A stretch of DNA of 64,000 nt from positions 39,723 to 103,722 of the forward strand of contig JAIXWR010000005.1 in assembly GCA_027491155.1 (NCBI GenBank), in the 5' to 3' direction. Origin of the DNA: Verrucomicrobiaceae bacterium. GTDB taxonomy: Bacteria > Verrucomicrobiota > Verrucomicrobiia > Verrucomicrobiales > Akkermansiaceae. Under the pieces are notes generated by a model. It was not told the DNA's origin and did no database searches. It worked only from the letters and a program-made list of their open reading frames with translations. A program made the position numbers and the translations under genes. Below, in pieces: positions 46,780 to 64,000 of this stretch (within the stretch, counting starts at the first letter, position 1; each line of letters opens with the position of its first letter).

Positions 46780-46986
46780 ATGAACGAACTGAAGGAGAAG
46801 CTGGCCGCTCTCGGATTGAGCGAAGAACAGATCGACGGAGCCCTCCGCACGGTCGCGGAGTTCGTCAAAGGCAAGGTGCCCGCCGAATACCAGGGCATCG
46901 TGGACTCCCTGCTGGCCGGGGAGACGCCCGACCTCGGTGCTCTCGGCGGCGGCTTGCTGGACAAGGTGAAGGGAATGTTCGGCTGA
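46780..46986 (+). CDS. Small helical protein of unknown function
   Basis: Acidic protein of 68 aa starting MNELKEKLAALGLSEEQID, then AEFVKGKVPAEYQGIVDSLLAG and a glycine-rich end GALGGGLLDKVKGMFG. It is predicted to be mostly amphipathic helix. Similar small proteins are scattered through bacteria without a known role. It is the last host gene before the integrative element. The ORF track places its start further upstream, but the 46780 ATG begins the coherent part. Confidence 0.65.
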   Translation: MNELKEKLAALGLSEEQIDGALRTVAEFVKGKVPAEYQGIVDSLLAGETPDLGALGGGLLDKVKGMFG

Positions 46987-47079
46987 GCCGGACCAGGGCC
47001 GCTGCAAGCGGGGCCCGGAAGCGGCGCGCCCCGGCGCGGAAACCGTCTGCCATGGGAGCAGGCCTGAGGAAAAAAGGAG

Positions 47080-47121
47080 TGGAGCATAGGAGATTCGAAC
47101 TCCTGACCTCTTCATTGCGAA
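47080..47121 (-). other. attachment site: 3' part of tRNA-Ala(CGC)
   Basis: Read on the minus strand: anticodon loop TTCGCAA (anticodon CGC), 3' anticodon strand TGAAG, variable AGGTC, T arm AGGAG-TTCGAAT-CTCCT, acceptor ATGCTCC and discriminator A. The 5' half of the tRNA is absent; the bases upstream give only a weak wobble stem. This is the expected footprint of integration into the anticodon loop/3' end of a tRNA gene. Confidence 0.8.
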
Positions 47122-47220
47122 CGAAAACCCAGCTAATCTCAAATTACTCTTTTTCAATCAGTTCCAACTCTCACTTGAGGAATCCCTTGGCAGTTGCCAG
47201 CAAAGTTGCCAATTTTGTAC

Positions 47221-48648
47221 GTGGCCCGGCCGAAAAAGCTCATTCATTTCAAGATCACGAAGTTCAAAAACGCGGCTTCGGGCACCAGTTCATGGCGGGT
47301 GACAGGAACGAAAAAAGACGGTACCCGGGTCCGGAAGAATTTCGCCGATCGGGCCGAAGCAGTCCAGGAGCAAGCCGACCTTGAAGTGGAGTTCGCCGGC
47401 GGGCAAGAGCATCGCAAGGCCGCCCGCACCTCGCTCGGACCCAACCAGTTGTCGGACGCGGAAGCGGCAATCAAACTGTTGAACGGGATGAGCCTTTCGA
47501 CGGTGGTCGCCCACTATTTGAATCTTCAGGCGCGGGTCCGGGCCAAGGGAGAGAACTTGGACCAGGCAATCGCGTTCTTCGAGAGCCGGTACCGCCCGGA
47601 GACCCAGTCGATCACGATCCTCAACGCGACCGAGGAATACCTGCGGACGCGACAGGGGCTCTCCGAAGCAACCCGGGCGAACTACAAGACCGGCCTGCTG
47701 CTGCTCCAGAAGAAGGATCCCAACAAACCGGTGCACACCTTCACGGTCGGCGACCTCGAGTCGGCCCTCAAGAATTACAAGAACGTCCGGTCGCAGAGGA
47801 GCTTCCGGCTGATCTTCTCGGTCTTCTTCCGCTGGGCCGTCCGCCACCACTACACGCTGGAGAACCCCTGCGCGCGACTCGACAAGCTGCCGAAAGAAAT
47901 GACCCAGATCGCGATGCTGTCCCTCGAAGAAAGCAAGCGCCTGCTCTATGCGGCCCTGACTTACGGGGACGGCACGGCGGCAACGCCTGTAGCCATCGCG
48001 CTGTTCGCCGGGCTTCGCCCGAGTGAACTCACCGCCCTCAAGGCGGACGACATCGGCGACAAAGTCATCCGGGTGTCCGGCGGCAAGCTGCGCCGGAAAC
48101 TCAAGCGGACAGTACCGATCCCCCCGGTGCTCGCGGACTGGCTCAAGCAGCAGCCCTTCACCGGCGTGCCGGCGGGCTGGATCTATAAGCTCAAGCAACT
48201 CAAGAAAGCCACCAAGGCCGCGAGGTGGGTGCCAGACATCCTCCGGCATACCTCCATCAGCTTCCAGACGGAGCGCGACAAAAACGAGGCCCTAACCGCC
48301 TTCCACTGCGGGACGTCGATCCAAATGATGAACCTCCACTACCGACACACCGTCGACGACGCCAAGGCCGTGAGGGAGTTCTGGAGTTTGACCCCGGCGA
48401 AGGTTCAAGCCACCAAGCCCGAGATTGAGCTACCCGCTGTGCGGAAAATAGCATGGCCTACCAAGGCGGCGCTACGCAAACTCGTCTGGAGCAAGCCGCT
48501 GGTGCATGCTGCAAAAGAGATCGGGGTGTCGGACGTGGCCTTGAAAAAGCGATGCGTAGCTCTCGGGATTGCCACTCCAGTTCAAGGTCATTGGATTCGA
48601 TGCGAAGCTGACGACCCGTTCAGCGCTAGACGCAGCAGCGACTCCTGA
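47221..48648 (+). CDS. Tyrosine recombinase (integrase) with C-terminal HTH
   Basis: Site-specific recombinase of 475 aa. The GTG start (VARPKKLIHFKITKFKN) fits an integrase N-terminus better than the TTG nine codons upstream. A SAM-like core-binding domain is at about residues 110-220. The catalytic domain has the first Arg in FAGLRPSELTAL (about 266), the His/Arg pair region ILRHTSISFQ (about 342) and the Tyr in NLHYRHTVDD (about 374). The last 70 residues (LRKLVWSKPLVHAAKEIGVSDVALKK) form a helix-turn-helix extension absent from most integrases. It is adjacent to the tRNA-Ala fragment, so it is probably the enzyme that integrated this element. Confidence 0.9.
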   Translation: MARPKKLIHFKITKFKNAASGTSSWRVTGTKKDGTRVRKNFADRAEAVQEQADLEVEFAGGQEHRKAARTSLGPNQLSDAEAAIKLLNGMSLSTVVAHYLNLQARVRAKGENLDQAIAFFESRYRPETQSITILNATEEYLRTRQGLSEATRANYKTGLLLLQKKDPNKPVHTFTVGDLESALKNYKNVRSQRSFRLIFSVFFRWAVRHHYTLENPCARLDKLPKEMTQIAMLSLEESKRLLYAALTYGDGTAATPVAIALFAGLRPSELTALKADDIGDKVIRVSGGKLRRKLKRTVPIPPVLADWLKQQPFTGVPAGWIYKLKQLKKATKAARWVPDILRHTSISFQTERDKNEALTAFHCGTSIQMMNLHYRHTVDDAKAVREFWSLTPAKVQATKPEIELPAVRKIAWPTKAALRKLVWSKPLVHAAKEIGVSDVALKKRCVALGIATPVQGHWIRCEADDPFSARRSSDS

Positions 48649-48652
48649 AGCC

Positions 48653-49222
48653 CTAGGCCTCCGGGGCCTTGTAGGGAAACCGATCGTCAAGAATTTGAAG
48701 TGCCTCTTCGTCCTTCGCTTCGCCCTTGGGCAAGTTGTTCGAGAACCCATGATCCAAGAGCAACTTTCCGAGTCCCTTCAGAAAAGAATCGGAACGGCGC
48801 TTGCGTGAAAGATCGATCGCGATCTTGGTCATTTCCCCCAGAAGGTCCGCGATTCCGACGCTACGAGCATCGGCGTCGAAAATGAGATTGTTCCATACGG
48901 CTTGCTTAAACGACACGGGCTCGATCTGCCTTGGAATACACGTTGGGCTCCATCGAGAACCGTCCGCCGACCTTATTTCATCTGCGGGATCCTTTCCAAG
49001 AAGCCAGTCGCCAGAGACCCCCGTCTTCTCGGAAATCAGAGCTGCCAAGCTCGTCGAGCATTCAATAATTCCGCTTTCAACATTTCTGATCAAGCTCTCC
49101 GAGCGCCCAACAAGATCGGCAAAACCTTTTTGGGTACCGAACTTTTTCAGATGGGGAACACCGGATTGAGCAAGTTCGCGACGAAGCTTCCTAAGGGGGT
49201 GTTCGGGAGGCGGCGGAGGCAT
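48653..49222 (-). CDS. XRE-type DNA-binding regulator
   Basis: Protein of 189 aa when the ATG at 49222 is used instead of the preceding GTG. A helix-turn-helix of the Cro/CI type spans about residues 25-75: TQKGFADLVGRSESLIRNVESG followed by SLAALISEKTGVSGDWLLGKDP. The C-terminal part is charged and helical with no recognised domain. It converges on the integrase with a 4-bp gap and is divergent from the next gene. Inverted repeats in the 150-bp divergent region may be its operators. It probably represses element functions. Confidence 0.82.
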   Translation of the reverse strand: MPPPPPEHPLRKLRRELAQSGVPHLKKFGTQKGFADLVGRSESLIRNVESGIIECSTSLAALISEKTGVSGDWLLGKDPADEIRSADGSRWSPTCIPRQIEPVSFKQAVWNNLIFDADARSVGIADLLGEMTKIAIDLSRKRRSDSFLKGLGKLLLDHGFSNNLPKGEAKDEEALQILDDRFPYKAPEA

Positions 49223-49271
49223 CACTGAAGTCTTCGTGATTCGGCGATATTTTCAACATCGTTCTCACCTT

Positions 49272-49316
49272 AGCGCACTTTTCGGTTGTTTTGGCCTTTT
49301 TTAGCGCTATTGCGCT
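49272..49316. promoter_or_regulatory. Candidate operator repeats of the XRE regulator
   Basis: TTAGCGC occurs at 49270 and again at 49301, 31 bp (three helical turns) apart. The second forms a perfect inverted repeat, AGCGC-TATT-GCGCT (49303-49316). The site lies between divergent genes and in an AT-richer stretch. Binding is inferred. Confidence 0.5.
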
Positions 49317-49374
49317 TCTTGTAATGAAGCTCACCGCTAAACTCAAACCCTGAACTTCCACTCCCATTGCACGC

Positions 49375-50394
49375 ATGAACACGAAAACCAATAACGCCCC
49401 TACGCGGCGCAACTCTATCGTCATCAAACTGTTGGAGATCGTCACCAAGTATCCGGTGCTCCTTCTCGAATGGATCCTGACCGCCCGGATCCAGTTGCAA
49501 TGGCTTCACCCGTCGTCCTGCCCGCTCGTGATGATCGTGACGAACGATTCCCACGGCAAAACCATCCCTCTGCCTCCTTCGGCTGACCCCTGGATCTTGG
49601 ATCACGCGAGCGGCCACGGCCTCCTCACACCCGATGGGAAGCACCTCAAGGCCGTGTTTCCGCTGACGGCGGTCTCCCTCCCCATCGAAGGATGCGATTT
49701 TTTCGCTGTTCACCCGGCAACTCTCGCCGTGTCCAAATGGTTGGAAATTGACCTCTCATCGATCGCAAGCTTCGGGCAGTGCGTGGTGACGATCCCCAGC
49801 CAAACCCCTGTGCCGGCTGAAATCGTCGATGCTCTCGCTGAACTCTTTTCGGCGTTCCGTAGCGAAGCCGTTCGCGGCTTCGAGGCAACGAACGGCGGCT
49901 TGGACGACACGATCACTCCCGCCGGATTCCTCGAAGCGCTCGACGGCCTCCCTGGCCGGTTTGTGGAAGCGATGCGCACGCTCGCGGAAGAGATCGACCA
50001 CCTTGTGGGTCACATCGCTGCCGTCGCCGGCAGTGCCCATGAGGAGCACGAATTGGAGCTCTGTGATGAGATCAGCAAGGCCGCCATCTGCGCGTTGATT
50101 CCCGGGATCCGTGCCCTCGCGTTCCACGGCTTCGGCTGGCCCATCCTTCCCCCCGCGGATGCGAAGATCTTTCTGGGCAAGATCCGAGACGGGCAACCGG
50201 TGTCCGTCGAGACCATCGCGACCTTCCGCAGCGACCTGGATTCGGAACAACACGAGGAGCTGCTCAGCTTCTTGTTGAAAGCCGGGTTGGTGGCCATGAA
50301 GGACTCGTTGATTTCGGTGGTCGAGCCGGCGGCCTTCCTGGCCGCCCAGTCGGGAACCCTCGCGCCGGGCACTGTAGCCGGCGGCTTTGCCTGA
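49375..50394 (+). CDS. Unknown protein of the integrative element
   Basis: Protein of 339 aa starting MNTKTNNAPTRRNSIVIKLL. The first hydrophobic stretch (KYPVLLLEWILTARIQLQWL) might be a membrane or amphipathic helix. The middle includes FRSEAVRGFEATNGGLDD and a helical part ending EEHELELCDEISKAAICALIP. No family is recognised. It is the only gene between the XRE regulator and the first 22-bp inverted repeat, and a perfect 10-bp hairpin follows it. The composition is lower in GC than the host chromosome. Coding is supported by continuous third-position bias. Confidence 0.65.
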   Translation: MNTKTNNAPTRRNSIVIKLLEIVTKYPVLLLEWILTARIQLQWLHPSSCPLVMIVTNDSHGKTIPLPPSADPWILDHASGHGLLTPDGKHLKAVFPLTAVSLPIEGCDFFAVHPATLAVSKWLEIDLSSIASFGQCVVTIPSQTPVPAEIVDALAELFSAFRSEAVRGFEATNGGLDDTITPAGFLEALDGLPGRFVEAMRTLAEEIDHLVGHIAAVAGSAHEEHELELCDEISKAAICALIPGIRALAFHGFGWPILPPADAKIFLGKIRDGQPVSVETIATFRSDLDSEQHEELLSFLLKAGLVAMKDSLISVVEPAAFLAAQSGTLAPGTVAGGFA

Positions 50395-50404
50395 CCTTTC
50401 CGGG

Positions 50405-50434
50405 GCGGCCCGCCTCGCGACCGGGGCGGGCCGC
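50405..50434 (+). terminator. Strong hairpin after the unknown 339-aa gene
   Basis: GCGGCCCGCC and GGCGGGCCGC form a perfect 10-bp stem with a 10-nt loop, 10 bp after the stop codon. Only TT and CTGGTT follow, so a classical T run is lacking. Confidence 0.6.
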
Positions 50435-50470
50435 TTCTGGTTGCATGAGGTGATGCCGTTATGACCCAAC

Positions 50471-50501
50471 GCCGTCCTACGCCGATCTTTGCCGTCCTAC
50501 G
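50471..50501. repeat. Iteron-like direct repeats upstream of the replication-like gene
   Basis: GCCGTCCTACG occurs twice, at 50471 and 50491, exactly 20 bp apart. The intervening CCGATCTTT resembles the start of the nearby 22-bp repeat (TGATCTTT). An AT-rich stretch (TTCATACCAATTAATCG) follows. The arrangement is compatible with a replication origin. Confidence 0.5.
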
Positions 50502-50518
50502 ATTTCACCGACTGCCGG

Positions 50519-50540
50519 TGATCTTTAACACTACCGTAAT
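50519..50540 (+). repeat. Left copy of a 22-bp inverted repeat
   Basis: The sequence begins TGATCTTTAACACTACCG and ends TAAT. The identical 22 bp occur at 62052-62073 in the opposite orientation, so both copies read inward from the ends of an 11.6-kb segment. It lies just before the replication-like gene. Confidence 0.9.
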
Positions 50541-50609
50541 TCATACCAATTAATCGTGCACCCACCTGCCGACATCCCCCCCGCCGATCATGCCGGTCGC
50601 GCCCCCACG

Positions 50610-51764
50610 ATGCTAGACCGCTCCAAGATCTCCCTGCCTCTCCTTGAAATCCATCCCGACCTCGTTCGCGCCCCGGACCAGTTCGCGAGGGACCATGGAT
50701 TCCCCCTGCTGGACTGGCAGCCCAAGACCAGCAGAAAAACCAAAGACGGCTACCAACGACGGACCGCGAAGCTGTCACCCCTCGCCGACGACATCGTTGT
50801 TGTTTGGACCGTAAGGAAGGGAGATCGCTACTTCGCGGTGTACGTTGAATTCAATCCGGGCGGCCTGCTGTTCGGCCACAACGGCATCCCCATCGACAGT
50901 CCTCGCCTGCTCTGCGCGGCACTGAGCGAACTTGTCGCGGTCATGAAGCTGCTCCTTCGCAACACTTCGGATGCGGATCTCGTTGTTCCCGGGGTCAAGC
51001 GTGGCGGTGGATCCTACTGGTCCAGTCTCGAGATCCAGGTGAATCTCCACGACCCATCGGGGGCTCTTTTCCAGGCCTGCGCGAACGCGTCCCACTCCCG
51101 CATCCGAAGGCCTGCGTTTCACGTCAGCGGGGAAAGCAGGAAACTGCGCGGGACGAACCTCATTGTGAACATCTACCGCAAGGACCGCGAAATGGGCAAG
51201 CTGGCCCGCAAGTTCGAGATCGAGACACCCGCCGACATTCTCCGCATCGAGTATACCTTGAAAGCCGCCAAGCTGGCCCACTACTTCAATACGGATGGCG
51301 GCAATCTGAAGTCCTTCACCCTCGACCAGCTCTCCGCGGTTCACCGGCAGATCACCTCGGAACTTCGGGGGGTATTCAAACCCCTCACCTCCAAGAAACC
51401 TGCGGCGACGGCGCATGCACGGTTCATCGCCACGTTGGCCATGAGGAGCCTGGCCACAGCGGACGATCTGATCGAGGACTATCTTGCGGTGGGTGGCGGA
51501 AACCGCAACACCCGGAGCCAGCTACGGAAACAGGTAATCGCCCTGCTGGAGCAAGCGAGCACCACCTCGTTCGAGGATGTCTTCACAGATCAGGCCTACG
51601 TCCTACAGCCCCGCATTCGCATCCCAGAGCTAGAGGACAAATTCCGTAACGCAAGGCTCAGCACGGGCACCGACAAGCGGATCCACGAGATCTACGGAAA
51701 GCCCCGTCGCGAAGATCTTTTCGTTCCTCATGTCTCCGTCGACGACCTTTGCCCGCTCAACTGA
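50610..51764 (+). CDS. Possible phage/plasmid replication initiator (gene II/X-like)
   Basis: Protein of 384 aa from the ATG at MLDRSKISLPLL; a GTG 18 codons upstream is also possible. Features that recall replication proteins of filamentous phages and small plasmids are YFAVYVEFNPGGLLFGHNG and the strand LRIEYTLKAAKLAHYF. The second half is helical (TSFEDVFTDQAYVLQP). It starts directly after iteron-like repeats and the left 22-bp inverted repeat, where an origin would be expected. I recognise the resemblance only weakly. If correct, it initiates rolling-circle or strand-displacement replication of the cassette. Confidence 0.5.
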   Translation: MLDRSKISLPLLEIHPDLVRAPDQFARDHGFPLLDWQPKTSRKTKDGYQRRTAKLSPLADDIVVVWTVRKGDRYFAVYVEFNPGGLLFGHNGIPIDSPRLLCAALSELVAVMKLLLRNTSDADLVVPGVKRGGGSYWSSLEIQVNLHDPSGALFQACANASHSRIRRPAFHVSGESRKLRGTNLIVNIYRKDREMGKLARKFEIETPADILRIEYTLKAAKLAHYFNTDGGNLKSFTLDQLSAVHRQITSELRGVFKPLTSKKPAATAHARFIATLAMRSLATADDLIEDYLAVGGGNRNTRSQLRKQVIALLEQASTTSFEDVFTDQAYVLQPRIRIPELEDKFRNARLSTGTDKRIHEIYGKPRREDLFVPHVSVDDLCPLN

Positions 51765-51783
51765 AACCCATTTTCCAATAGCC

Positions 51784-53187
51784 ATGGAACCTCCGCCAAT
51801 CCCACCCGAGGCCCTCCACCTCCTCCGCAGCTTCGACTACGCCACCCTCGGAGACAGCAACGCCGTCGCCGGGATGAACGTGCTCACCTCGATGTGCTGC
51901 ACCCTCGCAGCGGTCGCCGGACCTCAAGCGGCGATCGTCACCGACCAGGGCGAATCCCGCCCCGTCGGGATCAACTTGCTCGCAGCAGGTTCCCTGTCAG
52001 CGGAACAGGTCGCGTCGCGGGTCCTGGAGCCCCTCCGCGTGCTCCAGAACAATCTCTCGCAAAACACCATGCAGGCGGCGGCAAAATCGGACAGCCACCT
52101 GAGCAAGAATATGCCGGGCACGGTGGGACCGCCGAAGTCCCCCATCACCCCGGAGCACCTGGCATCGGCCGAGGACTCGATGTTGCTCGGCTCGCTCATG
52201 CCGTCTGAATTTGTGGGAGAGAGCTTCCTGAATGGCGCTGCACGCATTCTCCGCCGCAACGCCCTGAGCGGAGGTGCGGAGGTGCTGTATCGCCCCGGCT
52301 TCTACTTCGAGGGCAGCAGCCCGGATCTGCTCTCCGGCCAGCTCGTGCACTGCCACAAGCAGCACCCGCTGGTTCACTTCCCCATCGGCGAACTCGCTCA
52401 GCTTTCCCGGGTGGAAGGAACCTGCCTCGGCATCATGGACGGCTGCTCCCTGCCGGGCAAAGTGCCCATCCACGTCAAGGGCTACGTGGTCGCCCGCACG
52501 TCGGCAGAGGTGCTGAAGCGCTTCGTCGAGTCGCGAGACGACGTCAGTTGGACCTACCGCACGCTGTGGCTCGTCGAAGACCCGCTCGGGCCACGTGGTC
52601 CCCAAGTCGCCGATCAGGTCCGCCTGGACCGCGTGCAGCAGCGCTACACCTCTGCGTTGGAGTCGCTCCTTGCCAACCGGTTCGGCGAGGGCCCAGCCCC
52701 GACGATTAGGGGAGACATCTCCGTGGAGCAGAATCGCGTTGTGAAGCACCTCGTGCAGCTCGACCGGGACCTTCCCGGCATCGCGGGCACGCTGATGAAC
52801 CTCTTCCCCACGCTGGTGTTCGGGCTGCACCACATCGCCAGCAGCGGGCCTGCTCCCAAAGGCTTCAAGTGGGATTGCAGGTCGGCCGCCCTTCTCGCCA
52901 TCCACCTTGCCGACCGCATGGCGCACTCGTTCAAGCTGATGCGCTACGCCGAGTTCTTGGCAACGAAGGAGCGGATTTCAGCTTTCATCCTTCAGAAGCT
53001 GGCAGAGCACCCCCATACCGCCCGTGAACTCACCCGCCGGCACAACAAACTGCCGATGCCTTGGTGCCGCCAAGCTCTTGAGGAGCTTCATGCCGGGGGG
53101 CTTGTTACCCTCGAAGGCGACAAGTGGCAGGTCGTCGACCGCCCCGCTCTTTCCAACACCCGCCCCCCGGTGATCGATGTCGGCTAA
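51784..53187 (+). CDS. Unknown 467-aa protein with C-terminal winged-helix-like region
   Basis: The start MEPPPIPPEALHLLRSFDY follows the replication-like gene by 19 bp; the ORF track start overlaps it. An N-terminal Ala-rich helix-strand pattern (NVLTSMCCTLAAVAGPQAAIV) resembles the beginning of DUF3987-type proteins, but the Walker A loop expected after it is absent (NLLAAGSLSAEQ). The C-terminus (LAEHPHTARELTRRHNKLPMPW then LEELHAGGLVTLEGD) looks like a winged helix. It overlaps the next gene by 11 bp, and the two share this layout, so they may be distant paralogues. Function is unknown. Confidence 0.65.
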   Translation: MEPPPIPPEALHLLRSFDYATLGDSNAVAGMNVLTSMCCTLAAVAGPQAAIVTDQGESRPVGINLLAAGSLSAEQVASRVLEPLRVLQNNLSQNTMQAAAKSDSHLSKNMPGTVGPPKSPITPEHLASAEDSMLLGSLMPSEFVGESFLNGAARILRRNALSGGAEVLYRPGFYFEGSSPDLLSGQLVHCHKQHPLVHFPIGELAQLSRVEGTCLGIMDGCSLPGKVPIHVKGYVVARTSAEVLKRFVESRDDVSWTYRTLWLVEDPLGPRGPQVADQVRLDRVQQRYTSALESLLANRFGEGPAPTIRGDISVEQNRVVKHLVQLDRDLPGIAGTLMNLFPTLVFGLHHIASSGPAPKGFKWDCRSAALLAIHLADRMAHSFKLMRYAEFLATKERISAFILQKLAEHPHTARELTRRHNKLPMPWCRQALEELHAGGLVTLEGDKWQVVDRPALSNTRPPVIDVG

Positions 53188-54643
53188 CCTGATCACCTGG
53201 AACATGGCGGCCGCGGGCAAGGATCCGGTGCGCGCGCTCACCGGGCTGCTCCACCGCTTCCCGGAGCACGACATGTCGCGCTCCCAGTTGGCAGCATCGC
53301 TCCTCCTCTCGATGTGGCAGCTTGGAGGACCGACTTTCTCCCCCACCCCGCCCTCCTTCCTGCTGGTCGACGCCAACGGGGAGAAGGACGCCGTGTGGCA
53401 GGCGCTTGCTGGGATGCTCAAGTCGCCGCTGGCACCGATCGAGGCGGCACCCGCCAAGTCCCTGCCGTCCGATCCCAACAACCTGTTCCGGGGAAAACCC
53501 GAACTGAGCCGCAGGACCATGCTGGCCGCGATTGCCACGCGCGAGAAGCTGGTGAGGCAGGGCTACCCGCCCGACGTGATCCACATGCAGTTGAAGAAGT
53601 GGCGGGAACAATGGCACCAGTGCAAGCCGGAGGCCTTCCCGGCGACGGAGATCAACCACTACTCCAAGGCCCACGACCCGGATTTCGGATGGGTCACCCA
53701 CGCCGACGATCACATCTCCCTTTTGGTCTGCGGTCCGAAGAGCGAAGCCGAACTCCGTCGCGATCTGCTGGACGAGCAATCGAAGCTTCACCTTCCCCAG
53801 GGCGTCCGCGACGACCTCAGCCGCTGGGACAAGAAGCTCGCGCTGATGGGAAGGATCACCGTCAAGAGCTGGGACACGTCCCTGGCAGACGGCTTGCTCG
53901 GCGGCCCCTTGCCCGTCGTATTCCTCCCCCACCTGTCTCCACCGCCCCCTGATGCCGGGCCGCACCCGGATGCCGGCCTCCTGGCCTCCATGGTGAGCTA
54001 CTTCACCCGGCACCAGCGCAACCACTGCCCGCCCGCGAGGGCTGACCTCCACCTCATGCCGATGGATGGAGAACCCGCGATCTACGCCGACCTGATCCTG
54101 AGAGCGTCGGCCGGGCTCCCCGGCGACCGCAGCTTCGGCCTCCAGCTTCTTATCCGCGAGCTTCAACTGGTGGTCTTTCGACTGTGCCTATGGCTTCTGC
54201 CAGCCGAACAGAAATCCGGCGCCAGCCAGGCTGAAGCTTTGCATCACCTGAGTCGCGACCTCTACGTCACCGCCCTCCGTGGCATTGCCTACGGGGTGGC
54301 GGCGCTGGGCTTCCACGGCCGTGGCATCGGCCTCGGCACCGACAGGACGGCAGCCATTCAAGTTCTTACCCACTTGAGGACCGCAGGCCCATGCAGCCGG
54401 CGCGACCTCCAGCGCAAGCTCTACAAGCTGGATAAGATGGAACGGGACCGCCTGCTGTCCCGGCTGGTGGCGGCATCTTTGGTTTCAACCGCGGGTAGGG
54501 ACGTGGAAGCGGTTCCCCTCGGCGACTATCTGATGGGGATCCCCGGCAGGCTGCGATTCCCCCTTCCGACACTCGCCACCACCCCCGCCTACATGGCCGG
54601 AATGAAGGACGGCGGGGCCTCCCAGGCAGGCGCGATGAAGTGA
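53177..54643 (+). CDS. Unknown 488-aa protein, possible paralogue of the preceding gene
   Basis: It starts inside the end of the previous gene (MSANLITWNMAAAGKD). The N-terminus has RSQLAASLLLSMWQLGG then SFLLVDANGEKDAVWQAL, where an ATP-binding loop would be expected in DUF3987-like proteins but is degenerate. The C-terminus (VLTHLRTAGPCSRRDLQRKL then LLSRLVAASLVSTAGRD) is a winged-helix-like region comparable with that of its neighbour. A middle segment (HPDAGLLASMVSYFTRHQRNH) is helical. The tight overlap suggests the two proteins act together, perhaps at the origin. No family is established. Confidence 0.65.
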   Translation: MSANLITWNMAAAGKDPVRALTGLLHRFPEHDMSRSQLAASLLLSMWQLGGPTFSPTPPSFLLVDANGEKDAVWQALAGMLKSPLAPIEAAPAKSLPSDPNNLFRGKPELSRRTMLAAIATREKLVRQGYPPDVIHMQLKKWREQWHQCKPEAFPATEINHYSKAHDPDFGWVTHADDHISLLVCGPKSEAELRRDLLDEQSKLHLPQGVRDDLSRWDKKLALMGRITVKSWDTSLADGLLGGPLPVVFLPHLSPPPPDAGPHPDAGLLASMVSYFTRHQRNHCPPARADLHLMPMDGEPAIYADLILRASAGLPGDRSFGLQLLIRELQLVVFRLCLWLLPAEQKSGASQAEALHHLSRDLYVTALRGIAYGVAALGFHGRGIGLGTDRTAAIQVLTHLRTAGPCSRRDLQRKLYKLDKMERDRLLSRLVAASLVSTAGRDVEAVPLGDYLMGIPGRLRFPLPTLATTPAYMAGMKDGGASQAGAMK

Positions 54644-55013
54644 TGGCCCGAGTCCGGGGGATACCCGCGGGCGAGCGTAGCTCGCGCACGCGGGAGTCTC
54701 CCCACCGCGAAGCTCGCTACCCACCCTTCACGCCGCGACTGATGCGACAGCGGTCCCGGGAAACAATCCCATTACAACCCGATTTGACTCCGATGATTGT
54801 CGCGACTGTCAAGAGAAGCGCCCCACTCCACGGCGACCAACACCGCAGGAGCAAAAAAATGGCACTGCGCCCACTGCATCCAAGCTGCACCGCTTGCATC
54901 GTGACACCCGGCACACCGCTGCGCGTCACCGGAAACCAGAGTGGAGTGTCCCCCCTCAAGCGCAATTCCCGGCCCCGGAGTGTCATTAGAAGTTGAAACA
55001 CCCCCACATTTCC
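54644..55013 (+). other. 370-bp intergenic region with RNA-like hairpins
   Basis: Directly after the stop a double hairpin is possible: CCCGCG with CGCGGG around CGAGC-GTA-GCTCG, and a second GCGAAGCTCGC copy follows. The rest contains repeated GGAGTGTC/CCACTCC motifs and no convincing gene; the 118-codon frame in the ORF track is rich in Arg/Pro and looks spurious. It could hold an origin, a small RNA or the promoter of the downstream operon. Confidence 0.4.
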
Positions 55014-55211
55014 ATGCCCCGCGACCTATACTCCCCGAAATTGTCAAACGACGTGGTCCGCGCCCTCTACCGGGAAGGACAACGTCGCCGACAGCCCATG
55101 ACGCGCGTCGCCGATGACCTGCTCCGGCAGGCTCTCGCCGCCGCCGACAACGACCGTCCCGTGCTCCGCCTCTGCGAAGAGGAACCGGTGCGCGACCGTC
55201 AGGTCGCCTGA
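55014..55211 (+). CDS. Small ribbon-helix-helix-like DNA-binding protein
   Basis: Protein of 65 aa from the ATG MPRDLYSPKLSNDVVRALY; the ORF track begins at a TTG seven codons upstream. The pattern short strand, helix (NDVVRALYREGQRRRQ), turn, helix (MTRVADDLLRQALAAA) fits the Arc/MetJ/CopG fold used by plasmid copy-number and antitoxin regulators. The C-terminal 15 residues are acidic. It is followed by a strong hairpin, so it is its own transcription unit. It is a good candidate regulator of the cassette. Confidence 0.65.
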   Translation: MPRDLYSPKLSNDVVRALYREGQRRRQPMTRVADDLLRQALAAADNDRPVLRLCEEEPVRDRQVA

Positions 55212-55236
55212 AACATCCCCCACCCCCGTCCGGCGA

Positions 55237-55269
55237 AAGCCCCGGTCCTCCCCATGAGGTCCGGGGCTT
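55237..55269 (+). terminator. Strong hairpin after the RHH-like gene
   Basis: AAGCCCCGG pairs with CCGGGGCTT (9 bp), and an inner CCTC/GAGG stem extends it, separated by one mismatch. It lies 25 bp after the stop. The downstream bases (CGTCGTGTC) are not a T run, so termination efficiency is uncertain. Confidence 0.65.
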
Positions 55270-55324
55270 CGTCGTGTCGGGGATCCACAGTCCCACCCCA
55301 CATCAACCCCAAAACTAATCAGCC

Positions 55325-55852
55325 ATGGCCATCAAACTTGTCGCCAATTACAGCAAGCGCCTGGGCCTCCCGGGCTACTCCAGCCACCAGTTCAGTATCG
55401 AGATCGAGACCGAACTTGTGACCACCGACGACGTGGCCGCCGAGTCGGCCCGCATCTACGAGCTCCTCCAGACCAACGTCGACGAGCAGATCCGCACCAC
55501 CGGATTCGTTCCTCCTACCGGCTACGGTTGTGAGGAAAGCCCGCCGGCACCATCCGCCAATGGGCACACCAACGGTGCGAGCCGTCCCCCGGCAAACACC
55601 GAGTGGAAGTGCACCGCCAAGCAGCGCGAGCTGATTGAGAACCTCGTCGCCGAGCACCACCTCGAAAAGACCGTGGTGGAGAACCTTGCCGTCGAGCGCT
55701 TCGGCAAGGGCGTCCGCCAGCTCAACAAGGTCGAGGCCTCCGGGCTGATCGACGAGTTGCTCGACACCCACGGCGGACAGCAGCGTCCTGCTACCAACGG
55801 CCGGCGCTCCGCCTACGCCGGGGTGAACGGAAACGCGGGAGGTCGCCGATGA
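55325..55852 (+). CDS. Small conserved-looking protein coupled to the Fe-S nuclease
   Basis: Protein of 175 aa. The N-terminal half (about 1-65) starts MAIKLVANYSKRLGLPGYSS and continues HQFSIEIETELVTTDDVAA, a beta-rich pattern seen in proteins next to RecB-like nucleases in related bacteria, from memory. A Pro/Asn-rich linker separates it from a helical C-terminal part (CTAKQRELIENLVAEHHLEK then LNKVEASGLIDELLD). The final residues are basic (GRRSAYAGVNGNAGGRR). The stop overlaps the nuclease start (ATGA), so the two are co-translated and probably form a complex. The exact role is unknown. Confidence 0.7.
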   Translation: MAIKLVANYSKRLGLPGYSSHQFSIEIETELVTTDDVAAESARIYELLQTNVDEQIRTTGFVPPTGYGCEESPPAPSANGHTNGASRPPANTEWKCTAKQRELIENLVAEHHLEKTVVENLAVERFGKGVRQLNKVEASGLIDELLDTHGGQQRPATNGRRSAYAGVNGNAGGRR

Positions 55853-56673
55853 TCGCGCTGGCCACTCCACCGCCGTCCCGGGCTTCAGCACTCCCGGATT
55901 ACATCAGCCCGTCAGCCGCCAAGAGCTACCTGGCCTGCTCCCTGCGCTTCTATTTCGAGCGCGTGTTGCAGATCAAGCAGCCGACGACGGCCGCCCTGCA
56001 CCTCGGCAAGTCCGTCCACGCGGCGCTCCAGGCTTTCCACCTGGCACGCTGGCGAGGGACGGACGACTCGCCCGAGGTGGTCGCCGCAGCCTTCGAGGAC
56101 GCGTTCACCAAGCTCGAACGCGACGAGGGGCCGGTGAAGTGGAAGGACGGCGAACGAGAGAAGTCCCGGCTTGCCGGTCTCCGCGTCGTCGCCGCCTACC
56201 TCGACAGCCCGGAGGCACCAAAGTCGAAACCACGAGCCGTCGAGGTGCCGCTCACCGAGACCATTGCCGGGTTGTGCGTGCCCCTCAGGGGCACCATCGA
56301 CCTGGTGACCGACTTCTTCGCTCCGATCGACTTCAAGTCGGCCGCGGCGAAGCCCGATCCAAAGCATGCGGTGTTCGACCACGAACTCCAGCTCGTCGCC
56401 TACCAGCTTCTGCTGGAGAAGGCCACGGGTGAAAAGCCTCCGTCGCTCGACCTCGTGTTCCTCGTGAAGACCAAGGTGCCGCAGGTCATCCGGGTTTCCT
56501 CGCCGCCTGCCGACCGCAGGCGGAAGGACCGGGTGATCCGCATGATCTACACCGCCGTCATTGGCATGTCGGAGGGACGCTTCCACCCGCAGCCCGGCAT
56601 GACGTGCATGTCGTGCCAGTTCCGCAACGAGTGCCAGAAATGGCCGGCGGTGATGGAACGGAGGGCCGCATGA
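55849..56673 (+). CDS. PD-(D/E)XK nuclease with probable Fe-S cluster (Cas4/AddB-like)
   Basis: Protein of 274 aa of the RecB-nuclease/Cas4 type. The order is YISPSAAKSYLACSLRFYFE with the first cluster Cys, HLGKSVHAALQAFH (motif His), the nuclease core RGTIDLVTDFFAPIDFKS (Asp near 151, D-x-K near 160), the QLVAYQLLL motif (QxxxY) and a C-terminal triple Cys MTCMSCQFRNEC. All catalytic and cluster residues of the family are present. Such enzymes cut or trim DNA ends, often 5'-3'. It is coupled to the upstream 175-aa protein and to the downstream lipoprotein (ATGA overlaps both sides). No Cas genes or CRISPR array are in the window. Confidence 0.9.
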   Translation: MIALATPPPSRASALPDYISPSAAKSYLACSLRFYFERVLQIKQPTTAALHLGKSVHAALQAFHLARWRGTDDSPEVVAAAFEDAFTKLERDEGPVKWKDGEREKSRLAGLRVVAAYLDSPEAPKSKPRAVEVPLTETIAGLCVPLRGTIDLVTDFFAPIDFKSAAAKPDPKHAVFDHELQLVAYQLLLEKATGEKPPSLDLVFLVKTKVPQVIRVSSPPADRRRKDRVIRMIYTAVIGMSEGRFHPQPGMTCMSCQFRNECQKWPAVMERRAA

Positions 56674-56864
56674 GGCCTTCCCTCCTCGCCGCCTGCTTGG
56701 CGCTCCCACTGCTGACCGGCGGGTGCTCGGAGCGCCCGCCGGAGAACCCTACGCCGGTCCCGGTGGCGACGGATCTCGCCCCGGTGGGTGAAGGGATTAA
56801 GACACTGGCCTACGCGCTCCTCGGAGCCTCTGTCGTGTTCACAGTTGGCAGAGTGCTTCGATAA
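56670..56864 (+). CDS. Small lipoprotein with one membrane segment
   Basis: Protein of 64 aa. A lipoprotein signal MRPSLLAACLALPLLTGGC is followed by a Pro-rich stretch (SERPPENPTPVPVATDLAP) and a hydrophobic C-terminal helix (IKTLAYALLGASVVFTVG). The start overlaps the nuclease stop (ATGA). Anchoring at both ends is unusual and suggests a small envelope or spanin-like protein. It is followed by another tiny membrane protein. Function is unknown. Confidence 0.65.
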   Translation: MRPSLLAACLALPLLTGGCSERPPENPTPVPVATDLAPVGEGIKTLAYALLGASVVFTVGRVLR

Positions 56865-56879
56865 CCGCCCACACACACC

Positions 56880-57017
56880 ATGAACCCCCACCCGTACATT
56901 GCGGTATTTGCGGGCATCTCGATCACGGCGCTCTGCCTTCAAATCATCGACGACTTCTGGTTGCCGATGATCTTGGGCGCTGCCGTCGCGGTCCTGATCG
57001 CCCGCATGTCGCGCTAA
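56880..57017 (+). CDS. Tiny two-helix membrane protein (45 aa)
   Basis: It is too short for the ORF track. MNPHPYIAVFAGISITALCLQ begins it, and two hydrophobic segments, YIAVFAGISITALCLQII and LPMILGAAVAVLIARM, are separated by a short acidic turn (DDFW). It starts 15 bp after the lipoprotein gene and ends before a T-tailed terminator, so it is the last gene of the nuclease operon. Coding is supported by position and hydrophobic pattern only. Confidence 0.55.
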   Translation: MNPHPYIAVFAGISITALCLQIIDDFWLPMILGAAVAVLIARMSR

Positions 57018-57041
57018 CCTGATCCGCTACCTCCTACGAAG

Positions 57042-57078
57042 CACCCGCCCGGTCCCGTGACCCGGCGGGTGTTTTGTT
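57042..57078 (+). terminator. Rho-independent terminator of the nuclease operon
   Basis: CACCCGCC pairs with GGCGGGTG, and an inner GGTC/GACC stem continues it. TTTTGTTT follows at once. It lies 25 bp after the tiny membrane protein and 43 bp before the next gene. Confidence 0.88.
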
Positions 57079-57120
57079 TCCCAGTCCCCAACCAATCCCA
57101 ACAACAACCAGCCAAAACAC

Positions 57121-58140
57121 ATGTCCCAGCAAATGTATGACCTCCCCCTCCTTGAAGCCGTCTGCCGTCGCGGTGTCCTCTGCGCCACCTCGGTTAGATA
57201 CTGGCGCGGATGTAAGCGCCTCAACGCCGAAGACCTCGGCCTCGATCCCGCCCACGTCTCCGACCGGCTGATCCAACTCGGTCACAAGCGGCTCATCCCG
57301 CGCGAGGCCTTGTCGGCTTTCTCGTTGATCGAGTCGAGAGCACACGCCCTCGTCGAAAGCGGCAGCTTCCCGTTCCTGGGAGGAATCGCCCGCTTCGTTC
57401 CGAATCCCCGTTTGGCCTCCTTGGTCGACGGCCTCGACAAGCTGCGCGACGAGTTCCGCGACGCCACCCTCGATTTCGTGGCAGGCTACGGCCCGCTGCG
57501 CGACCGGGCGATGGAGGAGTGGCGTGAGGCTGCCCGCCATCTCAACGGCAGCGCAGAGGCCCTGCTGATTACGATCGAGCAGAGCTTTCCCCCGGCCTGC
57601 GACATCGCCAAAAGATTCGCCTTCGAGACCCGGATGTTCCAGGTGGCGGCTCCCGAGAGCCTGCGCCTTGAAGTGTCCGAATCCATCGAGAGCATGGAGA
57701 TCGCCGACCAGCGCCGCCGCGTCGCGGAGGATGCCGGCCGCCGCCTCCAAAGTGATCTGGATTCCTTCATTAGCCAGTCAGTCACCACGCTCCGGGAAGA
57801 GACCGCCCGGCTCGCCTCCGACGTCCTCGCCACCATCGACGGCAGCGAGGGCGGCGTCCACCAGCGCACCCTCAACCGCCTCACGACGTTCATCGACAGC
57901 TTTCGGTCGTTGAATTTCGCCGGCGACCAGCAACTCGAAACCACCCTCGAACACTTCCGCGAGCAACTGCTCACCCGGAGCGCCGAGGAGTACCGCAACG
58001 ACAGCACTGCAATGCAAAGCCTGACCGCCGGCCTCAACCGGCTCCGCGACAACGCGGTGGCGATGGTCCGAACCGAGGGCCGCGACGTGCTCACACGCTT
58101 CGGCCAGATGGGCGGGCGCAAGCTCGCCGTCGCGAGCTGA
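57121..58140 (+). CDS. DUF3150 family protein
   Basis: Protein of 339 aa starting MSQQMYDLPLLEAVCRRGVL. The family pattern is good: an early VRYWRGCKRLNAEDLGLDP, then IQLGHKRLIPREALSAFSLIESRAH, FLGGIARFVPNPRLASLVDGLDKLRDEF and RDRAMEEWREAARHL. The C-terminal half is long helix, probably coiled coil (DAGRRLQSDLDSFISQS). DUF3150 proteins occur on integrative elements next to MoxR-type ATPases and VWA proteins; their activity is unknown. Here the partner ATPase would be the Ycf46-like protein at the end of the cassette. Strong hairpins flank the gene on both sides. Confidence 0.8.
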   Translation: MSQQMYDLPLLEAVCRRGVLCATSVRYWRGCKRLNAEDLGLDPAHVSDRLIQLGHKRLIPREALSAFSLIESRAHALVESGSFPFLGGIARFVPNPRLASLVDGLDKLRDEFRDATLDFVAGYGPLRDRAMEEWREAARHLNGSAEALLITIEQSFPPACDIAKRFAFETRMFQVAAPESLRLEVSESIESMEIADQRRRVAEDAGRRLQSDLDSFISQSVTTLREETARLASDVLATIDGSEGGVHQRTLNRLTTFIDSFRSLNFAGDQQLETTLEHFREQLLTRSAEEYRNDSTAMQSLTAGLNRLRDNAVAMVRTEGRDVLTRFGQMGGRKLAVAS

Positions 58141-58150
58141 ACCCACACGG

Positions 58151-58187
58151 AGTCACCCGGCGGGAGCTTGCTTTCCGCCGGGTGACT
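58151..58187 (+). terminator. Perfect 13-bp hairpin after the DUF3150 gene
   Basis: AGTCACCCGGCGG and CCGCCGGGTGACT form a perfect stem with an 11-nt loop, 10 bp after the stop and 19 bp before the next start. The bases after it (TCCACATCC) are not T-rich. It may terminate transcription or protect mRNA ends. Confidence 0.65.
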
Positions 58188-58206
58188 TCCACATCCTGAC
58201 ATCAAC

Positions 58207-58758
58207 ATGACCCGCCTCGAAAAAGAACAGCAACTCGCCAAAGACGCCGTGCGCCAGGCAGTCGCCTACCTCCGCCGCTGTGGCATCCGGGTTCCGAGGT
58301 TTGTGCTCACCACCGAGTGGAACGCACCCATCGGCGGATCCGCAGTGTACTTCGACGGCCGCGTCTCTCGGCTCAATATAGGCAGGTATCCAACCGCGTT
58401 CCTACGCGACTGGCTGGCCATGCACGAACTCGGCCACGTCCTATGGAATGAGCACCAACCGCTCCGGCGCAAGAAGTTCCGGGAGGCCTTCGGTGCCCCG
58501 GAACCTGAAGGTTACGACACGCTCTACCTCGCCGAGTCTTGGAAGACCGCTGCCACCCACCGGTTGTCCTGGCTCCCGGGCCTTCACCGTCCCCATGGCG
58601 AACCGTCATGGTATGGAGTGCGAGGCGGCGGAGGCGAGCGTTTCTGCGAGTTACTGGGGTTGATGTATGCGAACGAGGATTTCGCAGAGTCGCCCCCGCC
58701 GGATCTCTCCCCGTTGTGGAATGACTGCTGGGAGCACGGCCTCGCCCACATGACCTGA
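58207..58758 (+). CDS. HExxH zincin-like metalloprotease
   Basis: Protein of 183 aa. The zinc site is MHELGHVLWNEH with His73, Glu74 and His77. A third ligand may be Glu in the GERFCELLGLMYANEDF region. No signal peptide or membrane segment is present, so it works in the cytoplasm. The N-terminus (MTRLEKEQQLAKDAVRQAV) is helical. Its place between DUF3150 and DUF1257 genes suggests it processes a cassette protein or partner. The family is not further resolved. Confidence 0.78.
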   Translation: MTRLEKEQQLAKDAVRQAVAYLRRCGIRVPRFVLTTEWNAPIGGSAVYFDGRVSRLNIGRYPTAFLRDWLAMHELGHVLWNEHQPLRRKKFREAFGAPEPEGYDTLYLAESWKTAATHRLSWLPGLHRPHGEPSWYGVRGGGGERFCELLGLMYANEDFAESPPPDLSPLWNDCWEHGLAHMT

Positions 58759-59085
58759 CGGGGCCTCATTCCTCGCACCTCACGCCACACCCGAGCCCGC
58801 CGGACTGACGTCCCGCGGGCTTTCTCGTGCCCTCATCCTGGGCGTCCCCGCTGCTTTCCCGACCAAGCCTGCCATGCATCACCCGACCTGACTGCCTCCG
58901 CCCTGACCCGCCTGCTTTTCCAACCACCATCATCACTCCCACTCGAACGCCTGCTACCACCCTCAAAGCTTCCCCCAGATTCCCCGAACCCCGCGCAAAG
59001 GGCTGCTCCATCAAGGAGCAGCCCTTTGCGCATCCCGCCTTCCCGATCACCAAATCGAACCAACAACCCTATCTACTAGAAAGTC
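58759..59085 (+). other. 327-bp intergenic region with two hairpins and a C/A-rich leader
   Basis: The first hairpin (58794-58821) has AGCCCGC against GCGGGCT, followed by TTCTC. The second (58993-59031) has a perfect 17-bp stem starting GCGCAAAGGGC with loop ATCAA. Between them the sequence is C-rich without gene-like frames. A leader with AACCAACAACCC precedes the DUF1257 start. A promoter for the last operon is expected here. Confidence 0.6.
58993..59031 (+). terminator. Perfect 17-bp hairpin upstream of the DUF1257 gene
   Basis: The stem arms run 58993-59009 and 59015-59031 with no mismatch, and the loop is ATCAA. No T run follows. It is the longest perfect stem seen in the window. Its distance from the zincin stop (about 235 bp) makes simple termination of that gene less likely. 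Confidence 0.6.
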
Positions 59086-59475
59086 ATGAGCCACTTCACC
59101 AGCGTAAAAACAGAGGTCCGCGACCTCGACGCCTTGCTGCAAGCATGCGTCGAACTCGGTCTCAAACTCACACCGCAGTTCCCCTGCCGGGGATACGCCG
59201 GCGTCCACCGCAAGGCCGACTACACCATCGAGCTGCGCGGCCCCTACGACATCGCCGTTGATCCTTCCCTGGAAAAGGACGGCACCTACGCCCTGACCAC
59301 CGACTGGTGGGACGGCCATGTCGCCAAGGAAGTCGGCGTCGGTTACGGCAGGCTCCTCCAAGCCTACGGCATCCACAAGACCTTCCGCGAGGCCCACGCC
59401 CGCGGCCTGCGTGCGACTCGCCGGCTCGAAGCGGACGGGTCCGTGCTGGTCACCCTGGAAGGAGGTGCGCTGTGA
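59086..59475 (+). CDS. DUF1257 (Ycf35-like) protein
   Basis: Protein of 129 aa. The opening MSHFTSVKTEVRDLDALLQAC is the DUF1257 signature also found in the plastid/cyanobacterial protein Ycf35. The middle (YTIELRGPYDIAVD and YALTTDWWDGHVAKEVG) is beta-rich. The C-terminus (GSVLVTLEGGAL) is short. The family's biochemical role is unknown. It is coupled to a DUF2997 gene by a GTGA overlap, an order that recurs in many genomes together with a Ycf46 ATPase, which is present downstream. Confidence 0.88.
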   Translation: MSHFTSVKTEVRDLDALLQACVELGLKLTPQFPCRGYAGVHRKADYTIELRGPYDIAVDPSLEKDGTYALTTDWWDGHVAKEVGVGYGRLLQAYGIHKTFREAHARGLRATRRLEADGSVLVTLEGGAL

Positions 59476-59672
59476 GCCGCCGCATCCTCGTGCGAGTCGC
59501 TCCCGACGGAGCGCTCACCGTTGAAGCGGATGGCTTCCAGGGCAAAGGCTGCGAAGCCGCCACCCGGGCCATCGAGGAAGCCCTCGGCAAACGCACCGAC
59601 CGCACGCTCAAGCCCGAGCACCGCCACGGCGGCGTTTCCGTCCAACAGCAACAACAGCTCGGCGGGTCATGA
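59472..59672 (+). CDS. DUF2997 protein
   Basis: Protein of 66 aa starting at GTG inside the DUF1257 stop (GTGA); the ORF track start is wrong. The pattern RRILVRVAPDGALTVEADGFQGKGCEAATRAIEEALG followed by KPEH fits DUF2997: a short beta sheet and one helix, with the conserved GFxGxxC. The C-terminus is Gln-rich (QQQQQLGGS). Nearly all members lie next to DUF1257 genes. Probably it forms a complex with that protein. Function is unknown. Confidence 0.85.
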   Translation: MSRRILVRVAPDGALTVEADGFQGKGCEAATRAIEEALGKRTDRTLKPEHRHGGVSVQQQQQLGGS

Positions 59673-60103
59673 GAACGACCCTCCGATTCGACGACACCGG
59701 CCGAGTGGAGTGCCTCTTCACTGAAGCGGTCGATCTCCGTGCGCTCGGACGACTCCAGGTCGTCCGGGCCACGGACATCCGCTTCAACGCCTCGACCCAG
59801 CTCTGGGAAGTCCACCACGCCGACAACGACGAGGTGCTCTTCTCGGATCCCTCCCGTGCGGCGTGCCTCGCGTGGGAGCAGGACCACCTGCAACCCGGCA
59901 CGCCCGATCCCCAACTACCAACCCGCACCATCCGACCCACCATGAAAAAAGCAGTCCTCGTCACGCTGGCGCTTGCCGGCCTCCTCGCCGCATGCGGCCC
60001 CAGCAAATCGGAACTCCGCGCCGAACTTCGTGCCATCGACACCGAACTGGTGAGCCTCCGTGTCGCAGCCGAACAACACCGGGCTCAGATGAGCCAGGCC
60101 TAG
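59669..60103 (+). CDS. Small cassette protein whose frame runs into the next lipoprotein
   Basis: ORF of 144 codons beginning MRTTLRFDDTGRVECLFTEA with an ATGA overlap to the DUF2997 stop. The first 75 residues form a coherent small domain (LRALGRLQVVRATDIRFN, then VLFSDPSRAACLAWEQDHL). The frame lacks a stop there and continues through a C/A-rich segment into a lipoprotein signal (MKKAVLV) that looks like an independent start at 59942. Either a stop codon was lost, or a real fusion exists. The small domain resembles proteins that I associate with Ycf46 neighbourhoods. Function is unknown. Confidence 0.6.
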   Translation: MRTTLRFDDTGRVECLFTEAVDLRALGRLQVVRATDIRFNASTQLWEVHHADNDEVLFSDPSRAACLAWEQDHLQPGTPDPQLPTRTIRPTMKKAVLVTLALAGLLAACGPSKSELRAELRAIDTELVSLRVAAEQHRAQMSQA

Positions 60104-60301
60104 TTCGACGCCTTCATCGGCTCCTTTGCGGCCGGCTACGGTGCCGTGTCCGGCGACTACGGCTTGGCCGGTGACGGTGTCGGCACGGCCATCGACGCCA
60201 CGAACCAGGCCAATGCCGCCAGCTACTCGCTGAACCAGATCAAGCAGCGCCACGACCAGCTCGCCAAGAGGCGCGCGGAGATCGTCGGCAAACTCGACTA
60301 A
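59942..60301 (+). pseudogene. Lipoprotein gene interrupted by an in-frame amber codon
   Basis: From ATG 59942 the protein opens with the lipoprotein signal MKKAVLVTLALAGLLAAC and a charged helix (KSELRAELRAIDTELVSLR). TAG at 60101-60103 stops it after 53 residues. The same frame then continues for 65 codons with normal codon bias (FDAFIGSFAAGYGAVSGD ... QLAKRRAEIVGKLD) to TAA. A glycine-rich middle and a helical end suggest the original 119-aa lipoprotein. A CAG to TAG change would explain it. A functional readthrough is possible but unproven. Confidence 0.75.
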
Positions 60302-60316
60302 TGCGACGCATGTCCC

Positions 60317-60355
60317 TGACCCCGGTCTCCCCACGGAGGCCGGGGTCATTGTTTT
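60317..60355 (+). terminator. Rho-independent terminator before the AAA+ gene
   Basis: TGACCCCGG pairs with CCGGGGTCA, and an inner CTCC/GGAG stem continues it across a wobble pair. TTGTTTTT follows. It lies 16 bp after the lipoprotein TAA and 40 bp before the AAA+ start. Confidence 0.88.
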
Positions 60356-60394
60356 TCCAGCAAGCCCATCAAACCAACAACAACTCCGATCCCC

Positions 60395-61918: not shown

Positions 61919-61968
61919 CGATCACGGCACCCGAACAGCGGAGCGGAGAAAAATGCCGACGATATGTG

Positions 61969-62002
61969 GCCCCGACGTCGCCCAGAGGAGCGGCGTCGGG
62001 GC
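61969..62002 (+). terminator. Hairpin after the AAA+ ATPase gene
   Basis: GCCCCGACGTCGC pairs with GCGGCGTCGGGGC over 13 bp with one T-G wobble and an 8-nt loop. It starts 50 bp after the stop. The following CTAGGTTGCC is not a strong T run. Confidence 0.65.
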
Positions 62003-62051
62003 TAGGTTGCCGATTGGAGGCCGTAGCGGCATGCTCGAATAATGATGCGGT

Positions 62052-62073
62052 ATTACGGTAGTGTTAAAGATCA
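62052..62073 (-). repeat. Right copy of the 22-bp inverted repeat
   Basis: The plus strand reads ATTACGGTAGTGTTAAAG and ends ATCA, the exact reverse complement of 50519-50540. Identity is limited to these 22 bp; flanks on both sides differ. Confidence 0.9.
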
Positions 62074-62234
62074 TACCCAGTGACGACCCGGGATCCGAAT
62101 CACGTTCTCCACCTCCGCGACGGTCATTGAAGTAGATCCCACAAGGGTGGAACCAACTGGTTTCATCTTGGCAAGCATCAGTCCTCCTCTGACGTCAGGA
62201 TCATCCGGTCGGCATAGAACTCCTGAATCCGGCA

Positions 62235-63694: not shown

Positions 63695-63702
63695 CAAAGT
63701 GC

Positions 63703-63736
63703 GAACATTTGTTCATTATAGTTCACATTTTGTCAA
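63703..63736 (-). promoter_or_regulatory. Candidate abiE promoter/operator region
   Basis: GAACATTTGTTC is a perfect palindrome 9 bp upstream of the antitoxin start. On the minus strand TATAAT sits directly before it, and GTTCA is repeated at 63711 and 63721. TTGACA is also present but only 10 bp from TATAAT, too close for a standard pair. Binding by AbiEi is likely from the family's known behaviour. Confidence 0.55.
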
Positions 63737-63883
63737 ATCATCCGACACACCGCACGGATGTTTGGGATTCCTGAACATCCGTGCACCGCCGATTCCCGAC
63801 ACCGGCTGCAATTCTCCCCGCCACGACCGGCGGCGACACCCCAAACCACCAACCAGCCCAGAACCAACATGCATCCCGCAACA

Positions 63884-64000
63884 CCACCAGCCACCAGCCA
63901 CCAGCCACCAGCCACCAGCCACCCGCCACCAGCCACCAGCCACCAGCCACCAGCCACCAGCCACCAGCCACCAGCCACCAGCCACCAGCCACCAGCCACC
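63884..64000. repeat. Heptanucleotide tandem repeat (CCACCAG)n, cut by the window end
   Basis: Sixteen consecutive 7-bp units CCACCAG plus a partial one are present; one unit at 63919 is CCACCCG. The array continues to the last base. The antisense WWLVAGG frames in the ORF track are artefacts of it. The stretch 63737-63883 before it shows no gene. Confidence 0.92.

Follow-up and report, generated by a model that had tools for sequence, protein, structure and literature searches.

A genomic island in the tRNA-Ala(CGC) gene of a Verrucomicrobiaceae bacterium and related islands in other tRNA genes

Genomic islands of the kind collected by Islander (tDNA islands) carry an intact tRNA gene at one end, a 3' fragment of it in the same orientation at the other end and a tyrosine integrase in between, and 2083 of 3919 islands were scored as anticodon-centred (PMC4383910). 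The locus described here, found in a 64,000-nucleotide stretch of DNA (the window, to which all positions without a contig name refer), resembles these islands in all of these respects, including the anticodon-centred site, and differs from them in that it spans a contig break and in that its integrase clade is described from Verrucomicrobiota. A search through part of the literature returned nothing specific on such islands in Verrucomicrobiota.

Related integrases with targets diversified over many tRNA genes are known from the archaeal pT26-2-type (reviewed in PMC8371274), and the integrases studied here likewise have different tRNA targets. Unlike the archaeal group, however, the present clade is bacterial and not suicidal, the attachment site lying outside the integrase gene, and three sister pairs with different isotypes were resolved, one of them within a single genome. 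The best structural match is the phage lambda integrase, which the predicted N-terminus of three strands and a helix also resembles, and motif pairs in both arms around the core are a further likeness to lambda and its attP; unlike the lambda enzyme, to which it is about 15% identical, the window integrase has an extra C-terminal domain and targets a tRNA gene. Like integrative and conjugative or mobilizable elements the island is large, tRNA-integrated and cargo-bearing, but relaxase and conjugation genes were not found among the ORFs scanned.

Read on the minus strand, positions 47121-47080 contain the 3' half of a tRNA-Ala(CGC) (tRNA positions 32-73): the anticodon loop TTCGCAA (anticodon CGC), the stem strand TGAAG, the variable region AGGTC and the T arm AGGAG-TTCGAAT-CTCCT, ending with the acceptor strand ATGCTCC and the discriminator A. 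The stretch is identical to the 3' half of an intact gene on another contig of the same genome (G000:C31:54547-54619, minus strand). ARAGORN called no tRNA at 47080-47121, because the D arm and the 5' acceptor strand are missing. When the whole genome (5.73 Mb) was searched with the 42-mer, allowing up to 3 mismatches, two copies were found, both exact, the second one inside the intact tRNA-Ala(CGC), and no third copy of the tRNA-Ala fragment. The two loci share an exact direct repeat of 50 bp (47076-47125, minus strand; partner C31:54543-54592), which starts at tRNA position 28, ends 4 nt beyond the discriminator and forms the attachment-site core at the integrase end; the chance expectation of a 50-bp exact repeat is about 1e-16.

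A first-pass annotation of the window had recognized a tRNA-Ala(CGC) 3' fragment lacking its 5' half, with which both the sequence read and the sole genomic partner agree. The parts that it listed (loop, variable region, T arm and acceptor strand) are all there, but the list has to be extended by positions 28-31, the 5' strand of the anticodon stem, which are also kept within the 50-bp repeat; the break is therefore placed at the anticodon loop or immediately before it. The same annotation had predicted that beyond 64 kb, at the right end, a second copy of the 42 bp would be found together with an intact tRNA-Ala(CGC), and proposed to look for them, the fragment being an old relic if neither turned up. 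Both are present, 54.5 kb into contig C31 and in the predicted orientation.

A tyrosine recombinase (integrase) is encoded on the plus strand at 47221-48648. Its likely GTG start at 47221 is 99 bp from the fragment, in line with the roughly 100 bp noted before. The protein matches phrog_1 (integrase) at 1.4e-28 and also Xer models, scores below the Pfam gathering cut-off, and comprises N-terminal and catalytic parts and extra C-terminal helices. In a structural model of modest mean confidence (63.6) the N-terminus is predicted to form three strands and a helix, and a fold search with this model gave lambda integrase as top match, followed by other tyrosine recombinases. A sequence search against solved structures gave no match, and in IMG/VR there is one weak, partial relative (34% identity). 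The residues R275, K298, R351 and Y383 are invariant among the aligned integrases. As assigned by eye, the histidine of the HxxR motif would correspond to D348 and the H/W position to T374, and this D and T are found in all seven aligned members.

Between the fragment and the integrase gene lies a paired motif, TGGCAA-N6-TGGCAA, with a 12-bp period (47194-47211, minus strand), and at the opposite island end a matching pair is located 119/131 bp beyond the intact tRNA. At both ends of the tRNA-Ala island described here, and likewise at both ends in two further genomes (G010 and G011), the core is flanked by such pairs, with the motifs 12 bp apart. The pair on the tRNA side also occurs in G006 and in a further island of the present genome, on contig C36, with one degenerate copy in G008, and the motif on the integrase side is present in most clade members, 3 of 17 being without it in the stretch searched. 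The pairs are candidate arm-type sites that the N-terminal domain of the integrase may bind.

The alternative that the fragment is an old relic, whose source element is gone and which has no connection with either the adjacent integrase or the intact C31 tRNA, appears very improbable. The genus does have tRNA fragments without a related integrase, such as G012:C18:214469, where no match to the window integrase lies within 20 kb. The repeat of the window, however, shows full identity along its 50 bp, the integrase ORF is intact and has close relatives that adjoin the same fragment, and the same arm-like motif pair is found at both ends.

A complete island of the same design is contained in one contig of the genome (G000:C36:133920-201615; 67.6 kb), where an intact tRNA-Pro(CGG) is located at 133920 and the tRNA-Pro fragment, repeating 49 bp of it exactly, at 201567; its integrase shares about 92-93% identity with that of the window. 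In a congener (G017:C189) an intact tRNA-Arg(ACG) is followed, 78.5 kb further on, by an integrase and a 49-bp exact copy, the repeat identity beginning at the first anticodon-loop base. The same junction as in the window, with the same left-flank genes and an integrase 87% identical, was found in G010. The earlier view of the fragment as an integration junction at the left end of an island is thus borne out by a second example of the junction and by complete islands elsewhere.

The related island of G011 bears on the position of strand exchange. The T stem of its intact tRNA-Ala reads GGGA/TCCC and that of the displaced fragment GGAG/CTCC, a difference at four positions (52, 53, 61 and 62), and the stem of the fragment is that of the tRNA in most close congeners. 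It follows that the island would have supplied the new 3' half, with the exchange upstream of position 52. In the simplest reading the G011 island brought its own 3' half and displaced the native one, the exchange probably falling somewhere from position 32 to position 51. In G000, C36, G011 and G017 the repeats have their 5' boundaries at positions 28-32, which would agree with an exchange in the anticodon loop. As a separate observation, an insertion sequence appears to cut the right end of the G011 island inside the terminator that follows its tRNA-Ala, which would account for the contig break there (end of C11 and start of C10; L107 and L073).

Taken as a whole, the evidence makes it very probable that the island was integrated into tRNA-Ala(CGC) by a lambda-type integrase, and that the fragment at 47080-47121 represents the original 3' end of the host tRNA gene, displaced by the insertion. 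An excised, presumably circular element would have carried a tRNA 3' half, from the anticodon stem to the discriminator, in its own attachment site, and a lambda-type tyrosine integrase, its N-terminal domain possibly bound to the paired TGGCAA sites at both ends, would have recombined this site with the host tRNA gene inside the anticodon loop. The copy on the element would have completed the tRNA at C31:54547-54619, and the original 3' half of the host would have been pushed to the far side beside the integrase. This would have produced an island with a length of at least 71.5 kb, broken in the assembly at a 7-bp array.

The window ends with contig C15, inside this tandem array (CCACCAG, 63884-64000, plus strand), which continues at C31:1-91 and links both contigs; elsewhere in the genome the array (CACCAGC) was found in the first bases of C31 only, on the same strand. 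In the C36 sister island, a match to the window at 51.8-61.9 kb and, after a gap of about 2.1 kb, a match to C31:86-2069 come one after the other, and in G011 window-like DNA extends up to the AbiE genes and is then followed by the C31 start. Since the array is shared and unique, and since the gene order is that of C36 and G011, there is a strong indication that C15 runs into C31, two contigs that are not physically joined in the assembly. At the other end, the last 0.75 kb of C31 before the tRNA matches DNA beside the tRNA-Pro on C36. The island would accordingly measure at least 71.5 kb, 16.9 kb of it in the window (47076-64000) and about 54.6 kb on C31 (G000:C31:1-54592), the fragment end being the one with the integrase and the opposite end the one with the intact tRNA. 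IS transposases are found close to the right end, and some of the 71.5 kb may therefore be a later addition.

The intact tRNA-Ala(CGC) is followed by a terminator. This terminator and a small helix-turn-helix-like gene beside the tRNA were considered as native chromosome, a reading that was discarded, the same end being found next to the tRNA-Pro in C36. The genome has an estimated contamination of 4.6%, and genes on C31 and C36 were called with a simple home-made caller. With C15 and C31 in the order given, the locus has an intact tRNA gene at one end, the displaced 3' fragment downstream in the same orientation and a tyrosine integrase within the interval, as in the definition used by Islander, and is a classic tRNA-integrated genomic island.

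A WGR/ligase-like gene, whose first codons directly continue the array, has a C36 homologue without it. Units of 7 bp shift the frame, and the start of this gene could be phase-variable.

It could be argued that the left end on C15 and the right end on C31 stem from two islands at one tRNA gene, either as a tandem array or as a composite with a rearranged middle. Several of the C31 genes (the long polysaccharide cluster, the NO-signalling genes and the IS transposases) are without a match in the C36 island, and synteny of the left and right flanks is not conserved in congeners, as such an origin would allow. On the other hand, the genome holds no third tRNA-Ala fragment, and the first 2 kb and the last 0.75 kb of C31 before the tRNA match the C36 island in order. 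We therefore regard two islands as unlikely and a single one as the better account of both ends.

An empty tRNA-Ala site with both flanks adjacent was sought in 17 congeners and found in none, the left-flank genes being located elsewhere and the flank synteny broken. In G009 the flank gene nearest the fragment is correctly oriented and sits on the 3' side of the tRNA, at a distance of 40 kb. This gene (46783-46986) was used as left-flank marker; lexA was dropped for this purpose, as it has another gene neighbourhood in most congeners and says little about the site. The tRNA flanks were compared by blastn and tblastn, tblastx being uninformative through high G+C noise.

Next to the integrase, a putative phage-type transcriptional repressor is encoded on the minus strand (48653-49225; phrog_8, 2.6e-5). 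The island backbone follows on the plus strand at 49375-58758, most of which is common to the C36 sister island and G011 and which includes a PD-(D/E)XK nuclease (55849-56673, plus strand) and a DUF3150 gene (57121-58140, plus strand). It continues at 59086-61918 (plus strand) with a DUF1257 protein (59086-59475), two small ORFs and an AAA ATPase (60395-61918), a set that is common to the C15, C36 and, in part, G011 islands. The shared backbone extends from the integrase through the AAA ATPase and includes the WGR/ligase-like gene. An AbiEi/AbiEii toxin-antitoxin pair (62235-63694, minus strand) also occurs in the G011 island and is without a match in C36.

On C31 the cargo of the tRNA-Ala island consists of a polysaccharide biosynthesis and export cluster, NO synthase and haem-NO-binding signalling genes, and IS transposases. 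The gene for a nitric-oxide synthase oxygenase domain adjoins those for a haem-NO-binding protein and a histidine kinase with a haem-NO-binding-associated domain (G000:C31:47572-50903), possibly a self-contained NO-signalling cassette inside the island. The tRNA-Pro island on C36 carries a BREX set (BrxA, BrxB, BrxC, PglX, PglZ and BrxL) and a DnaE-type polymerase with a SRAP gene.

Whether integrated once and since domesticated, keeping the marks of integration while no longer excising or transferring, is a separate matter from how the island arose, and such an immobile island would be compatible with the preferred origin. The Pfam hits of the ORFs scanned, in a non-exhaustive scan, include no relaxase, conjugation or type IV secretion gene and no capsid, terminase, portal or tail gene, and the junction shared by G000 and G010 is compatible with inheritance. 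Against this, the integrase, the att repeats and the arm-like sites are intact, and members of the clade occur at many tRNAs and in many species. Present immobility is a serious possibility, if the less probable one beside a predicted capacity for excision and transfer.

Relatives of the integrase were sought in 84,980 genomes and in 116 relatives. At all 18 distinct loci examined, with integrases of at least about 49% identity, a tRNA 3' half broken at the anticodon loop adjoins the integrase start. The targets, identified from the anticodon of the fragment, are Ala(CGC), Pro(CGG), Pro(GGG), Pro(TGG), Thr(TGT), Arg(ACG) and Arg(TCT), of which Ala, Pro(CGG), Pro(TGG) (intact copy in G017) and Arg(ACG) are confirmed by the intact gene. 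The integrases of the clade thus use the same position in different tRNA genes, with different cargo. Akkermansia-type integrases (about 31% identity) have no obvious tRNA half beside the gene, and the statement on the clade leaves them out. Another tRNA-Ala 3' fragment from position 28, at G012:C18:214469-214516, is without a match to the window integrase in 20 kb, and the same site may be used by another integrase type.

In a maximum-likelihood tree the isotypes were scattered, with 9 changes over five labels including the outgroup. Shuffled labels fitted the tree about equally badly, and the isotype label therefore has little phylogenetic signal. Three well-supported sister pairs have different isotypes, namely the genome's own Ala/Pro pair (97/94), a Thr/Ala pair (100/100) and a Thr/Arg pair (100/99).

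Islands of this kind are already known, and the closely spaced isotype switches would be of specialist interest. We tentatively suggest, as a rather doubtful generalization, that for the integrases of this clade any anticodon arm may serve as a landing site, that they move from one isotype to another within short times, and that each insertion replaces the 3' half of the tRNA concerned; islands with one backbone and different cargo (polysaccharide versus BREX defence) could then reside in several tRNA genes of one cell without mutual exclusion. The findings provide the exact delimitation of a large island in a poorly studied bacterial group. They also provide a natural series on the change of integrase target. 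A single genome has one island in tRNA-Ala and one in tRNA-Pro, their integrases sharing about 92-93% identity, and the Thr/Ala and Thr/Arg sister pairs are added to these, in a clade where the recombination position is fixed. With this series the determinants of tRNA target choice are directly testable.
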